A stretch of 22,652 nt of DNA from a virus: IMG/VR virus record IMGVR_UViG_3300047481_000688, positions 1 through 22,652 of that record. One strand, 5' to 3'. The notes under the pieces were generated by a model. That model did not search any database. It was not told where the DNA came from and worked only from the letters and a program-made list of their open reading frames with translations. Below, piece after piece: positions 10,478 to 14,753 of the stretch. Positions within the stretch are counted from its first letter, which is position 1, and every line of letters begins with the position of its first letter. The position numbers were made by a program, and so were the translations under genes.

Positions 10478-10981
10478 TTAGTTCCAAACATATTCGTATT
10501 CTCTGGGGATGGTTGTTGCTGTGTATGTGTTCTCTGACCAATCAAACTGCGAGTAATGCTCGTAGTTCTTGACCAGAAGTGCTTTGCGGTGACTGGCGAC
10601 AATTAGTGCCAACCGATCTGAGTTTATGAGCCACGCAGGTCTGTTGTCAAATCGGTGGTCTGGCAACAGGGCGTTCTCAAAGGCAACTCGTATGGTCGCT
10701 GTGGCTTTGTCGCCTATCGTGGAGTTGTAGCCCCTTCTGTGCCACTCTTTGACCATAGTCATAATGTATTCGTAAAGAGCCAATTCGTGGTTTCGCCACA
10801 ACTTGACGGCAGGATGATTGACCCAGCCTCTAGGTGTGCGGTGATTACCAGCAGGGTCGAGTTCCAGTAGGGTCAGCAGAATTTGCCAGCCCTCTAGTGC
10901 CTGTTTGTTTAGTCGCAGGTTGTCCAGCGTTTGTGCTGTGTAGGCGTGGTCGCCTTCGTATGAAGTTAGAAAAGTTTGCAT
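10478..10981 (-). CDS. Pyrimidine-dimer glycosylase-like (Pyr_excise / MSMEG_6728-type) protein
   Basis: A 167-residue protein, first of the leftward operon. MQTFLTSYEGDHAYTAQTLD, NLRLNKQALEGWQILL, GWVNHPAVKLWRNHELALYE and VKEWHRRGY follow the conserved order of the Pyr_excise-related MSMEG_6728-type family, whose better-known relatives (T4 endonuclease V) cut DNA at UV pyrimidine dimers. It continues with a HRKALLVKNYEHYSQF block also typical of the family. In a phage of sunlit water, UV repair would make sense, but the activity of this subfamily is not established to my knowledge. GGAGG six bases before the ATG; the promoter lies only 20-50 bases upstream. Confidence 0.65.
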   Translation of the reverse strand: MQTFLTSYEGDHAYTAQTLDNLRLNKQALEGWQILLTLLELDPAGNHRTPRGWVNHPAVKLWRNHELALYEYIMTMVKEWHRRGYNSTIGDKATATIRVAFENALLPDHRFDNRPAWLINSDRLALIVASHRKALLVKNYEHYSQFDWSENTYTATTIPREYEYVWN

Positions 10982-11001: not shown

Positions 11002-11030
11002 AGTCTAATTGACTTTGGTTTGGTTGTCAA
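11002..11030 (-). promoter_or_regulatory. Promoter of the leftward replication operon (TTGACA-N17-TAGACT)
   Basis: On the minus strand TTGACA (11030-11025) and TAGACT (11007-11002) are separated by exactly 17 bp. The start codon of the first gene is about 20 bp further on, with GGAGG between. One copy of the 14-bp repeat lies one base upstream of the -35 box, the classic position for an activator. The same box pair with the same spacing occurs at 12415-12443. Confidence 0.75.
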
Positions 11031-11112
11031 GCCATATCTAATGCATTTTTTCCATATCTAATGCAAGCGGTGAATTAGATGTGGTTTGAAATCGATCAAA
11101 ATTGGGTGTTTT

Positions 11113-11125
11113 TTGTGTTACACAA
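11113..11125. promoter_or_regulatory. Inverted repeat TTGTGT-T-ACACAA, operator-like
   Basis: TTGTGTTACACAA is a 13-bp inverted repeat with one central base. A sequence identical in 11 of 13 positions (TTGTGTCGCACAA) lies at 12493-12505. Both are upstream of the two identical minus-strand promoters, at roughly 83 and 50 bp from the -35 box, which suggests a shared regulator. Confidence 0.45.
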
Positions 11126-11142
11126 CATACAAAACACAGCCC

Positions 11143-11186
11143 TTTTCTGGGTGTTTCCTGAGTGCTTCCTGAGAGTTTTCTGAGAG
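11143..11186. repeat. Four tandem 11-bp repeats
   Basis: TTTTCTGGGTG, TTTCCTGAGTG, CTTCCTGAGAG and TTTTCTGAGAG follow each other without gaps. Eleven bases is close to one helical turn, so a protein reading this unit would bind on one face of the DNA. They sit in the middle of the 14-bp repeat cluster. Confidence 0.7.
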
Positions 11187-11274
11187 CCTTTGCATTGGAT
11201 ATGGTCAAAATGAATTAGATGTGGTCGAATTTGACCATATCTAATGCAATTTTGGCTCAAAAAAAACATCTCCT

Positions 11275-11329: not shown

Positions 11330-11370
11330 GAAAACTTCAAAAAGTCCCCTTTTTTGTCAAGGGGGACTTT
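11330..11370 (-). terminator. Intrinsic terminator of the GATase gene
   Basis: AAAGTCCCC (11341-11349) pairs with GGGGACTTT (11362-11370). Read on the minus strand the hairpin begins at the GATase stop codon and is followed by TTTTTGAAGTTTT, so it ends leftward transcription before the repeat region. It isolates the GATase from the replication operon. Confidence 0.8.
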
Positions 11371-12382
11371 AGTGAATGTTGTAGTAAGTTGCCCACTCTT
11401 TGTCGAGGTCTAACTTCTCTTGGTCGTAGCAGTATCTCTCGAAGGTTTCCAGAAGTTGCGACCGATCGCCAGCGAAGTATCCGTCGTAGGTGAAGTATTC
11501 TCCATTGGTGTAGAGGAAGTTGTCGTCGAGCCACTCCTGAAAGTCTGCCTCGGCTTCTGATATCGGCTCTGGCAGGTGGTCGAGATGGCTATTCCAGTCG
11601 TATGGAGTAATCATCCCGCCCTTACCGCCAGCAGTCATTGTGCGGTAGTTAGACTTACCCTCGTTGTATCTGCTCCAGTTGTATTCGTAGGCAGGGTCGA
11701 GTTCTGGTATCTCTAGTGTCTCGACAATAACACCACGACGAATTGTGTAACCCAGTCGCTCTGGCATCTTGAGGAAGAAGGTGGCTGTCAATTTCATCTT
11801 CTTGAGGAACTTGTTGAGTATGTCCTCGGTCGAAGCAAAGAAGAACGAGCCGTCTCTGACCTGACAGATAACAAGCGGAGAGTGTTCGATACGAGCAAGG
11901 TGCAAGTCACCTAGTCGGTCGTCGCTGAGCCACGCAATAGAAGCGTCGCCGTCCAGTTTGGCTATCCCCGCTAGTTGTTCCTGCTGAAGCAGGGCAGGGA
12001 TAACCGAAGTATCTACTTTGGGCAGTTTGAAGTTCAACTCTGTGCGAACTTGGTCGTGGTTGTAGATAACGCCATTGTGAACTAACTTGATGGAATTATC
12101 TGGCGACAGAACTGGATGATTGTTGCGTTGGTCGCTAGTCGATCCGTGAGTGGCTAACCTTGTGTGCAAGATAACCGCCTGAGTTCTGCGTGGCATTGAC
12201 CTGAGATTGAGTGCTGAGCCACGAACATCACGCTTGATGTATCCGCAAGACGAATTGGCGTGCCAGGCTGCACCAGAGGCTTGAGAGCCACGGACTTCGA
12301 GCAAGCCGAGCATTACATTTGACAATTTGCGGGAGTTGAGTTTAGAGTTATCTGATAAGGAAAAACCACCGATACCACACAT
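11369..12382 (-). CDS. Class II glutamine amidotransferase
   Basis: A 337-residue Ntn-type glutaminase. It starts MCGIGGF, so removal of Met exposes the nucleophile Cys2. Other family motifs follow in order: RGSQASGAAW, HTRLATHGSTSDQRNNHP (glutamine-binding Arg) and LVHNGVIYN (oxyanion Asn). Class II domains release ammonia from glutamine for a partner synthetase. The remaining 130 or so residues carry no synthetase, phosphosugar isomerase or other domain I recognise, so ammonia must be passed to another protein; the divergent amidoligase gene is the obvious candidate. It has its own promoter and terminator, so it can be expressed apart from the replication operon. Start chosen because Cys2 is required. 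Confidence 0.88.
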   Translation of the reverse strand: MCGIGGFSLSDNSKLNSRKLSNVMLGLLEVRGSQASGAAWHANSSCGYIKRDVRGSALNLRSMPRRTQAVILHTRLATHGSTSDQRNNHPVLSPDNSIKLVHNGVIYNHDQVRTELNFKLPKVDTSVIPALLQQEQLAGIAKLDGDASIAWLSDDRLGDLHLARIEHSPLVICQVRDGSFFFASTEDILNKFLKKMKLTATFFLKMPERLGYTIRRGVIVETLEIPELDPAYEYNWSRYNEGKSNYRTMTAGGKGGMITPYDWNSHLDHLPEPISEAEADFQEWLDDNFLYTNGEYFTYDGYFAGDRSQLLETFERYCYDQEKLDLDKEWATYYNIH

Positions 12383-12414
12383 AGGCTACCTACTTTCTGT
12401 TTGTTGATGTGTTC

Positions 12415-12443
12415 AGTCTAGGCGAAAATGACGCTCGTGTCAA
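12415..12443 (-). promoter_or_regulatory. GATase promoter (TTGACA-N17-TAGACT)
   Basis: Minus-strand TTGACA (12443-12438) and TAGACT (12420-12415) with a 17-bp spacer, 32 bp before the GATase ATG. Both boxes and the spacing are identical to the replication operon promoter at 11002-11030, though the spacers differ, so both are probably read by the host vegetative sigma factor at the same time. Confidence 0.75.
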
Positions 12444-12492
12444 CAAAATTCGCAAACTTTTTCAAAAAAGTTGCCTTGTGGGGGTAAAAGAA

Positions 12493-12528
12493 TTGTGTCG
12501 CACAAAATCTGGGCAAAAATCTGGGCAA
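12493..12528. promoter_or_regulatory. Operator-like inverted repeat followed by a tandem 12-bp repeat
   Basis: TTGTGTCGCACAA at 12493-12505 is close to the element at 11113-11125. It runs into two copies of AAAATCTGGGCA (12504-12515 and 12517-12528). The block lies about 50 bp upstream of the GATase -35 box in the gap between the divergent genes. No convincing ORF covers it. Confidence 0.45.
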
Positions 12529-12615
12529 AGTTTCCCCTATGTCGCCCCCTTATAGGGCATATGCATAGGCTAGCCACATATGTCAAGAATAGTTCGCTGT
12601 AGGCGTACAGATACC

Positions 12616-12662
12616 GGGTCGTTTGCTCTCCTGCCCGGTGAGCGGGTCGAGCAAAGCGACCC
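12616..12662 (+). ncRNA. Structured RNA element A, upstream of the amidoligase
   Basis: A long hairpin: 12616-12628 pairs with 12649-12662 through 13 base pairs with one bulged G (12656). Inside are an unpaired TCCT(G) on the 5' side (12629-12633), a short inner stem CCCG/CGGG with loop GTGAG, and TC on the 3' side. No U-tract follows, so it is not a terminator. A competing stem ACCGGG/CCCGGT (12613-12618 with 12633-12638) overlaps it. Its core matches element B at 14697-14732 in 20 of 24 bases while the outer stems differ. It lies 150 bp before the amidoligase, probably in its 5' untranslated leader. Strand is inferred from that. Confidence 0.55.
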
Positions 12663-12711
12663 AATTACAAGAAAGTTGGTAGTAACGACAATAATAAATT
12701 AGCAGTAACAA

Positions 12712-12738
12712 TAATGATTGCATGCTTAGTAATCATTA
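12712..12738. repeat. Inverted repeat TAATGATT / AATCATTA upstream of the amidoligase
   Basis: Eight-base arms at 12712-12719 and 12731-12738 around an 11-bp centre. It may be an operator or an mRNA hairpin in the leader. A 27-codon ORF at 12714-12797 uses part of it but has no ribosome binding site. The remainder of the 12383-12811 gap shows no gene and no confident plus-strand promoter. Confidence 0.35.
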
Positions 12739-12811
12739 CCATACTAGCCCTATCAGGGTTAGAGACCTGTAACAACAATTCATATTGCAAACTATAAGGA
12801 GATAAAGCAAC

Positions 12812-14314
12812 ATGATAAAAGAAATAAAAGAGGGTGCCGGAAGAATAGCAACAGAGTTAAAAGCTATTCAAGAAGGTGCTGGAAGAATAGATGCCATTGA
12901 TTATGTAAACATAATTGAAAAGAATCTACCAGAATATACAAAAATACATTCATCCGAAGGAAGCTGGATGGAAGTAATATCAGTTTATGTTAATCCATGG
13001 AAAAACATATCAGCACAAGATATGCGATCAGTAATAGCTTATGGATTACATAATCTAGGCGGTGAACACATTGTAATACTAGAAAACTTAATAGAAAATA
13101 TTGAGAGATATAGATTACAAACAACTGTTTTCAATGCATTCTTACAATCAGTCCTACAAACTGAAGAGCTAAAAATACATAGAGAAAGAAATACGATCAC
13201 TCATGTTATTAACAGATCCAATGTGATTGAAAGCTCAGAACTAGGATATGTAATAACAAGTTGGGAAAAAGTATCCAACACATCTATTACGAAAGAGGCG
13301 CTAATAGATGCAGTGTCACAAATGGCTGAACTTAAGAGAATACTAATAAGTAGAAAAAATCAATTATTAGGAAAAGACAAAGTCAGCGGCTTAAAAAGCC
13401 TATATGATCAAAAACCAACAACACCAGCATCTAGTTCTTGGTTCAGCAGCATATACGATGAAATGCCCAAAAATGGATTGACAAGTCGTACTTGGGGTTT
13501 CGAGTTAGAAATCGCAGATGCCAAAGATGTAAGACCAGTATTTGGTATCGAAAAAGGCGAAGATGGCAGTTTGCGTTCATATGAAAGTGACAGCGACTGC
13601 GAGTGTGATTGCGATGATTGCTGCTATCACGATTGCGATTGTGACCACTGCGAAAACAGAAACACAGACCCAGAGCACTGCAGAGGTCGTCATTGCGCAA
13701 ATGCAGATATGGCAGAGTTTAGGTCAGTGCGAGGTATCAGCAGATGCAAGCACTATGGTCTAAATAAACTATGTCAAAACCTAGAAAGTGAAGATGCAGA
13801 AGTAAATGATACATGCGGAGTACACATTCACGTATATGCCGCAGATCTAGAACCAAAACAAGTCGGCCACGTACTTGCTTGCTATCACTGGATTAGCAAA
13901 ATGATTGTAACCATAGCAGGTAGGGAAGACACAGAATATGCAAGAGATCTGAGCATAAACGAAATTAAAAACGGTATAAAGCATGGAAAGATATCTGGCA
14001 TAAAGATGAAGTCTGTAAATACAATGCATCTAAATAGCGATAGAGGAACTATAGAGTTTCGTCAAATGGAGGGCACACTGAATTACAAAAAGATTACAGT
14101 GTGGGCTTGGCTTGTACGAGGCTTAGTAACTTGTGCACAACGCGGTATGACGCTAAGTAGTTTGATAAAAGCTAAAAACCTAGAAGATGTGATGTCGGTA
14201 ATGAGCAAATATCAATACTCGCTATCAAGCGAGAACCCAGATGAAATTATCCCGGGCGGTAGACAGGACAATGATTTCATCAAGAAGCACAAATATATGA
14301 TACTGGAAAGGTAA
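12812..14314 (+). CDS. Amidoligase (Amidoligase_2 / COOH-NH2 ligase superfamily) with Cys-rich insert
   Basis: A 500-residue protein. The ligase domain begins at about residue 225: TWGFELEIA (227-235) and EDGSL (250-254), then GVHIHVYAAD (336-345) and TIEFRQMEGTL (413-423). These match the order of the phage amidoligase family related to glutamine synthetase and gamma-glutamylcysteine ligase, which join a carboxylate to an amine using ATP. Between EDGSL and AEFRSV lies an insert at about 260-298 with ten Cys in 33 residues (263, 265, 267, 270, 271, 275, 277, 280, 290, 295) plus several His and many Asp. The N-terminal 220 residues are helical, with a duplicated EGAGRI. AAGGAGA lies nine bases upstream of the ATG. 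Codons are A-rich (many ATA and AGA), unlike the capsid genes. The substrate is unknown. Confidence 0.8.
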   Translation: MIKEIKEGAGRIATELKAIQEGAGRIDAIDYVNIIEKNLPEYTKIHSSEGSWMEVISVYVNPWKNISAQDMRSVIAYGLHNLGGEHIVILENLIENIERYRLQTTVFNAFLQSVLQTEELKIHRERNTITHVINRSNVIESSELGYVITSWEKVSNTSITKEALIDAVSQMAELKRILISRKNQLLGKDKVSGLKSLYDQKPTTPASSSWFSSIYDEMPKNGLTSRTWGFELEIADAKDVRPVFGIEKGEDGSLRSYESDSDCECDCDDCCYHDCDCDHCENRNTDPEHCRGRHCANADMAEFRSVRGISRCKHYGLNKLCQNLESEDAEVNDTCGVHIHVYAADLEPKQVGHVLACYHWISKMIVTIAGREDTEYARDLSINEIKNGIKHGKISGIKMKSVNTMHLNSDRGTIEFRQMEGTLNYKKITVWAWLVRGLVTCAQRGMTLSSLIKAKNLEDVMSVMSKYQYSLSSENPDEIIPGGRQDNDFIKKHKYMILER

Positions 14315-14318
14315 GAAT

Positions 14319-14603
14319 ATGAAAATAAAGTTCATAGATCATATGCCACCCAAAAGGGGACCAAAGTCCAAGTATCCGTGGGCTGAGTTCATAGAAGAGC
14401 TATACAAACACCCCAACAGGTGGGCAGAGTTCCCTATGCTAGTAGCACATTCAATAACTGCATACAATGTATCCCAACGGTTTGCAGATATTGAAGTATC
14501 AATATCAGGCGGTAACAACTTCGCAATAGACAATCCAAACAAAAAAGATTGGACAGTCTATCTGCGATATGTTCCAAAAACTGGGCCTCAATCCAGTGAG
14601 TAA
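14319..14603 (+). CDS. Small actinophage-type protein with KYPW motif
   Basis: A 94-residue protein beginning MKIKFIDHMPPKRGPKSKYP followed by WAEFIEEL. Small phage proteins with a front of the form xPPKRG-x-KYPW-x-E are common in actinobacterial phages, with no known function; a nucleic-acid-binding role has been guessed from the basic N-terminus. It starts four bases after the amidoligase stop behind GGAAAGG and shares the same A-rich codon use, so the two genes form an operon that ends at the terminator after 14617. Confidence 0.6.
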   Translation: MKIKFIDHMPPKRGPKSKYPWAEFIEELYKHPNRWAEFPMLVAHSITAYNVSQRFADIEVSISGGNNFAIDNPNKKDWTVYLRYVPKTGPQSSE

Positions 14604-14640: not shown

Positions 14641-14696
14641 CCACATACGCACGTAGGGTAGGGAGACGAGATGGAAGCGCAAGACCATATCCGCTC

Positions 14697-14732
14697 CGTC
14701 CGTCTCCTGACCTGCGAGCAGGTCGACGGACG
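14697..14732 (+). ncRNA. Structured RNA element B
   Basis: CGTCCGTC (14697-14704) pairs perfectly with GACGGACG (14725-14732). Inside, TCCT (14705-14708) is unpaired and GACCTG/CAGGTC (14709-14714 with 14719-14724) forms a second helix with tetraloop CGAG. The core matches element A (12627-12650) in 20 of 24 positions without gaps, but the outer stem is a different sequence that still pairs. A 25-codon ORF at 14671-14748 runs through it and is probably chance. It lies just before a small membrane ORF, so it may be a leader element. Strand inferred. Confidence 0.55.
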
Positions 14733-14753
14733 ATCGCTCGGAAAGTAGTTATC

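Follow-up and report, generated by a model that had tools for sequence, protein, structure and literature searches.

Phages that encode a class II glutamine amidotransferase (GATase) together with an amidoligase have been annotated for more than 10 years. Both genes are carried by UFV-P2 and the LUZ24-like phages (PMC3890496) and by phage tf (PMC3517423). In RIO-1-like phages a "peptidoglycan modification cassette" was described and proposed to block superinfection (PMC5498523), and for OM43 phages an amidoligase and a GATase are named with reference to Iyer and co-workers and to mycobacteriophage Marvin (PMC10580990). The modification of cell-wall peptides that an earlier note on the present DNA mentioned as proposed for phage members of these families is a real proposal, echoed in later papers (PMC5498523, PMC10580990). 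As an experimental hint, a Pseudomonas phage carrying the pair acquired missense changes in both its amidoligase and its GATase gene in two lines under directed evolution (PMC11450229). In this literature on phage pairs a change to peptidoglycan is proposed, and no substrate is demonstrated. Here we describe the pair encoded by a virus fragment from IMG/VR (record IMGVR_UViG_3300047481_000688, nt 1-22,652), which we call the window. At about even chances, its GATase and amidoligase together make up a split amidating enzyme that depends on glutamine and acts on a carboxylate, the likeliest being that of the peptidoglycan stem peptide. The pairing of these genes was already known; what is new is a Cys/His-rich insert in the amidoligase that defines a clade.

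The Arthrobacter phages (Laroyevirus Wheelbite gp93/gp94, Laroye, and Salgado; Ottawa and Kharcho) resemble the window in combining GATase_6 with Amidoligase_2 and in their actinobacterial host, the group also predicted for the window. They differ in having the two genes as a one-strand tandem at the genome end, a GATase about 35% identical to that of the window, and an amidoligase without the Cys/His insert. An AIG2/GGCT-type protein has been reported in the Arthrobacter phage cluster (PMC5513430). The OM43 (methylotroph) phages have PF12224 and PF13522 proteins in the same genomes, as the window does, but infect a different host group; their description, in the part cited, mentions no Cys-rich insert (PMC10580990).

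In the LUZ24/RIO-1/phiEco32 cassette a class II GATase likewise adjoins an Amidoligase_2 protein, but the cassette additionally contains a COOH-NH2 ligase, an ATP-grasp ligase, and a GGCT/AIG2 protein. The search for the COOH-NH2 ligase (PF14395) was positive for the LUZ24 control and gave no match in 37 related records, some possibly fragments, or among the scanned window proteins. GGCT/AIG2 proteins (PF06094; GGACT) were absent from all window-type records searched and occurred only in seven marine records. With LUZ24 gp21 (ATP-grasp) as protein query, only gp21 itself was retrieved in 39 records, a search that a divergent ATP-grasp could escape. Because PF14395, GGACT, and a LUZ24-type ATP-grasp were not found in window-type records, the window pair is a reduced two-gene variant and not a full member of the LUZ24-type cassette. 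Its clade represents the minimal form of what elsewhere reaches up to seven genes and should thus be the simplest system for finding out whether these two genes suffice for amide formation and which target they act on.

A search seeded with the GATase alone yielded 66 viral loci. An amidoligase was adjacent to the GATase in 61 of these (60 by profile, and locus L011 as a fragment), and in the other five the GATase begins at most 360 bases from a contig end, where the locus is cut. This bears out the co-occurrence that the earlier note had expected. The same was found in all 14 Arthrobacter phage records with a GATase, which also have an amidoligase (adjacency was seen in Wheelbite, gp93-gp94), and LUZ24 gp18-gp19 is the same pair. 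When close relatives were collected by seeding with the amidoligase, 13 of 14 had a GATase and the other one ends at a contig edge. Four layouts of amidoligase (AMI) and GATase (GAT) were observed: divergent, as in the window; AMI-GAT, with or without a small conserved gene (ORF94, for open reading frame; family f14) in between; GAT-AMI; and AMI-GAT-AMI. In the last layout, two different amidoligases flank the GATase, one per side (L057, 8183-12673; L059, 8177-12670).

Loci within clades are kin, and the weight of the pairing lies in several deep lineages and in the changed layouts. Kinship is also the basis of an explanation in which the two are unlinked metabolic genes that stand together at the early/late junction merely through common descent: many of the 66 loci fall in one clade, and in the divergent layout the genes have separate promoters. 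We consider this very unlikely, given that the pairing survives layout inversions and spans Arthrobacter phages, LUZ24, the marine group, L063, L066, and L138. The partner relation is one of conserved gene linkage, not of a common transcript.

The window GATase matched PF13522 (GATase_6; E 1e-17, 64.9 bits against a cut-off of 27) and phrog_14519 (E 1e-31). The profile matches included the glutaminase part of GlmS models, and none of these searches matched a synthetase domain. Across 48 GATase homologues, Met1-Cys2, which places the N-terminal nucleophile (Ntn) Cys right after Met, is invariant. Full or almost full conservation was also seen for R31-G32, H73-T74-R75, T78, N87, H102-N103-G104, and D124 and for the motifs HTRxATHG, NxHP, and HNGVIYNH. 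Equivalents of the glutamine-binding and oxyanion residues R73, H77, N98-G99, and D123 of GlmS are kept. The AlphaFold model, with a predicted local distance difference test (pLDDT) score of about 97 over residues 1-230, has an Ntn-hydrolase fold and superposes on the glutaminase of Escherichia coli GlmS (2j6h_A) with a VIA Z of 25.4 and 30% identity. The earlier note, which described a complete class II glutaminase with Cys2 as nucleophile and no synthetase domain, was correct on this point. Because the class II residues are invariant and the confident model superposes on the GlmS domain, the glutaminase is predicted to be active. The glutaminase domains of GlmS, PurF, and AsnB share the fold and the Cys2/Arg/His/Asn-Gly/Asp catalytic set with the phage protein, which differs in having no fused synthetase and in carrying 100 C-terminal residues without an assigned role. 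As the synthetase domain is missing, a separate acceptor is needed.

GATase II domains also occur in the archaeosine pathway, and base modification is known in phages; the pair could in that case add an amide to a modified phage base. Neither QueC nor a thymidylate-synthase-family enzyme was found in 39 related records, in which the controls were positive, and base hypermodification is the least probable of the explanations considered.

The amidoligase consists of a helical N-terminal region of about 205 residues followed by a catalytic domain like that of glutamine synthetase (GS), at about residues 208-475. It matched PF12224 (E 1.3e-10, 42 bits against a curated cut-off of 22) as well as phrog_2443 and phrog_7469. 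In 36 homologues E231, E233, D251, H338, E415, and R417 are invariant, and S253, G336, and H340 are kept in at least 90%, so that the amidoligase motifs noticed earlier are present and conserved. They include motifs of the metal/ATP-site type (ExE, D-G-S, GxHxH, and ExR), and this layout of acidic, His, and Arg residues is the one expected for GS-like ligases. Sequence searches of solved structures found no match for the protein. The catalytic part of its AlphaFold model has pLDDT mostly above 94, and the VIA comparison, in which alignments span 170-200 residues, gave Z scores of 11.6 with YbdK, 10-11 with glutamine synthetases, 10.2 with Dop, and 9.8 with glutamate-cysteine ligase. The Foldseek matches were weak (best E 0.011), yet the top 26 all came from the GS/YbdK-type superfamily. 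A fold with ATP and metal sites, the lack of which the earlier note had named as refuting its proposal, is thus supported by both the structural matches and the conserved motifs. YbdK and glutamine synthetase share the catalytic fold (Z 10-11.6), with about 12% of residues identical in alignments of about 190, but have neither the Cys/His insert nor a helical N-terminal region of this kind. From motifs and model together, the protein is predicted to be a catalytically competent GS-like ATP-dependent ligase. At its N-terminus, an imperfect 33-nt tandem-like repeat (12816-12890) encodes the peptides KEIKEGAGRI and KAIQEGAGRI.

The main rival arises from these structural comparisons, in which the amidoligase core fits not only GS but also YbdK and glutamate-cysteine ligase, and the GATase model matches EgtC (Z 20). 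The amidoligase would then join the amine of an amino acid or peptide to a carboxylate, for example by gamma-glutamylation, and the GATase-fold protein would later cleave the gamma-glutamyl amide, as EgtA and EgtC do in ergothioneine synthesis. The gamma-glutamyl enzyme GGACT, present in related phage cassettes and in the marine relatives, is in keeping with such a ligase and hydrolase, but it is missing from the actinophage-type relatives searched, and in both fold and sequence the GATase is closest to the GlmS glutaminase (Z 25, 30% identity), with EgtC ranking behind it. We regard this rival as unlikely.

Most likely, the pair amidates a carboxylate at the expense of glutamine and ATP. Hydrolysis of glutamine by the class II GATase would yield glutamate and ammonia; the GS-like amidoligase, with ATP and Mg2+, would phosphorylate the substrate carboxylate and couple the activated group to the ammonia from the GATase, giving a primary amide. 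We infer the physical partnership, the ammonia transfer, and the primary-amide product from the two predicted activities. The likeliest substrate would be a host peptide with a free carboxylate, foremost the peptidoglycan stem peptide or its precursors (D-Glu, diaminopimelate), and its amidation would alter the cell wall during infection. Actinobacterial walls carry amidated D-Glu and diaminopimelate, and for such walls a peptidoglycan target would be chemically sensible. Taken alone, peptidoglycan as the substrate is a proposal from the literature that we hold tentatively, somewhat below even chances.

Several observations weigh against a split amidating enzyme with a wall target. Known GS-like enzymes can dispense with a GATase by using free ammonia or amines, and class II GATase folds serve also as hydrolases, as the EgtC match (Z 20) illustrates. 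In the window the GATase and the amidoligase belong to separate transcripts, and a strong conserved promoter was found only for the GATase. Scans with a 12-member alignment for distant viral amidoligases found a GATase nearby in only 1 of 67 cases, at least 16 of which have more than 2.5 kb on both sides; together with the 61 of 66 GATase-seeded loci, this means that a GATase implies an amidoligase but not the reverse. The correlation of GATase and amidoligase distances was 0.24, not clearly higher than the 0.21 obtained with the terminase in the same 32 loci. No cell-wall gene was linked to the pair.

The Cys/His-rich insert, which the earlier note had passed over, lies between D251-G-S253 and E302 of the amidoligase and has the pattern C263xCxCxxCxxHxCxCxxC280 ... 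H289 C290 xxxx C295, with nine Cys and two His. Seven of these 11 ligands are invariant and the remaining four reach at least 90% among the 36 homologues, which average 24% column identity, so the ligands are conserved on a par with the catalytic residues. Comparison with the amidoligases of Wheelbite (Arthrobacter) and LUZ24 found no such insert in either, and the marine amidoligases (L054-L064) lack it at the catalytic-domain site, having instead repeated CxxC motifs in their N-terminal part. On the GATase tree, the loci with the insert group into a single set of 43 rows (97/96), within which one tandem subgroup has a reduced form and L042 and L043 a degenerate one. The AlphaFold model gives the insert a pLDDT of about 45, and the sequence search of solved structures found no match for it. 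In BFVD, a phage entry named "LIM domain containing protein" has the amidoligase fold.

The insert probably binds metal as a cluster. The metal would probably be Zn in a structural role, with the cluster giving shape to the entrance for the substrate. A more specific version, unlikely but worth stating, is that a multi-metal Cys/His cluster recognizes a macromolecular substrate (a peptidoglycan strand, a protein, or a nucleic acid) or senses redox, making the protein a distinct class of GS-fold ligase that forms a split amidotransferase with the GATase. The insert offers a mutable handle on substrate recognition and separates this clade from the better-known family members.

An insert invariant within the clade could also dock a protein or nucleic acid, with the pair modifying host or phage proteins (RNA polymerase, ribosome, or surface proteins) by amidating their carboxylates or attaching peptide tags to them. 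The different Cys-rich N-terminal extension of the marine amidoligases, the fold relationship to the GS-like Dop, and the position among early and replication genes, not lysis genes, fit this explanation. Among the conserved neighbors, however, neither a target nor a gene for a tag peptide or precursor was found, and we judge protein modification rather improbable.

The features of the region are listed in Table 1. The pair lies at the junction, at about 12.4-12.8 kb, of a leftward block coding for a DUF3987 protein, an AAA ATPase, two WhiB-like proteins, a helicase, and SSB, and a rightward block coding for TerL, a portal-like protein, and the capsid; the placement between two blocks given in the earlier note was accurate. 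The leftward block starts with the GATase and the rightward one with the amidoligase. Since WhiB genes are present and TerL is 43-45% identical to that of Arthrobacter phages, the host is probably an actinobacterium. A search of genome contigs gave one distant relative only, so no host could be assigned through a prophage.

Table 1. Coordinates of the GATase/amidoligase region in the window
Feature	Position	Strand	Family or basis
Class II glutamine amidotransferase (glutaminase only), 337 aa	11369-12382	-	PF13522, phrog_14519
Amidoligase_2 protein, 500 aa	12812-14314	+	PF12224
Cys/His-rich insert in catalytic domain, residues 263-295	13598-13696	+	36-homologue alignment
ORF94, small conserved protein, 94 aa, family f14	14319-14603	+	Starts 4 bases after amidoligase
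GATase promoter TTGACA-N17-TAGACT	12443-12415	-	Found again in relatives, far above chance
Terminator-like hairpin right after GATase stop	11346-11364	-	Scan match CCCCTTGACAAAAAAGGGG-ACTTTTTGAA; support mainly position
Stable hairpin in divergent intergenic region	12617-12665	+	Fold z -2.4 (+) / -3.6 (-)

The earlier note had credited the module with its own promoters, terminators, and RNA elements and hence with separate control. Of this, the GATase promoter stood: in divergent loci, a sigma70-type site with 0-1 mismatch precedes the GATase in 33 of 35, whereas only 1 of 23 tandem loci has one, and upstream of the amidoligase it occurs in 2 of 35. The comparison allowed the -10 variants TAGACT and TAAACT, drawn from the data, and shuffles under the same rule averaged 3.4 mismatches. 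A module-wide set of signals was dropped, as the scan of the window alone did no better than shuffles (five promoter-like matches against 8.8 expected, and five terminator-like matches against 3.0, not clearly above). A second perfect TTGACA-N17-TAGACT on the minus strand (11002-11030) precedes the leftward Pyr_excise-like gene (10981), so this promoter type is not private to the pair, and the amidoligase heads the rightward genes without it. Because the conserved promoter precedes the GATase and not the amidoligase, the GATase looks like an early gene, and the amidoligase would be transcribed from another signal or together with the rightward genes. In this phage, the separate promoters speak against a module under joint control of its own, not against a shared reaction.

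As to RNA elements, stable hairpins do flank the amidoligase-ORF94 unit, at 12617-12665 and about 14690-14745, but no Rfam family matched in the region. Both have a common 22-nt core, TCCTGNCCNGNGAGCNGGTCGA, and their outer stems, although entirely different, still pair. The hairpin pair was not found in 69 other loci. As a shared element, the core was rejected: seven other viral contigs match it, with flanks that fold differently and a GC-rich, coding-like context, which points to chance.

Homologues of ORF94 occur in 20 of 68 loci, at most 6 kb from the GATase, and mostly adjoin or lie near the amidoligase in both layouts; the protein had no Pfam or PHROG family match. PADLOC models of anti-phage defence matched neither the GATase, the amidoligase, nor ORF94. 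The amidoligase gene (window 12501-14000) has 36-38% GC against about 46% in the remaining window, an AT-richness that suggests later acquisition. The gene at 10478-10981 encodes a member of the MSMEG_6728/Pyr_excise family; in several relatives (e.g., L003-L005), its homologues are found close to the GATase. The noncoding gap after the GATase (11032-11248) contains six copies, three direct and three reverse, of CCAYATCTAATGCA/TTCA. With up to two mismatches allowed, the window contains eight matches to this repeat, a number reached in none of 100 shuffles, and the copies look like an operator or iteron cluster.

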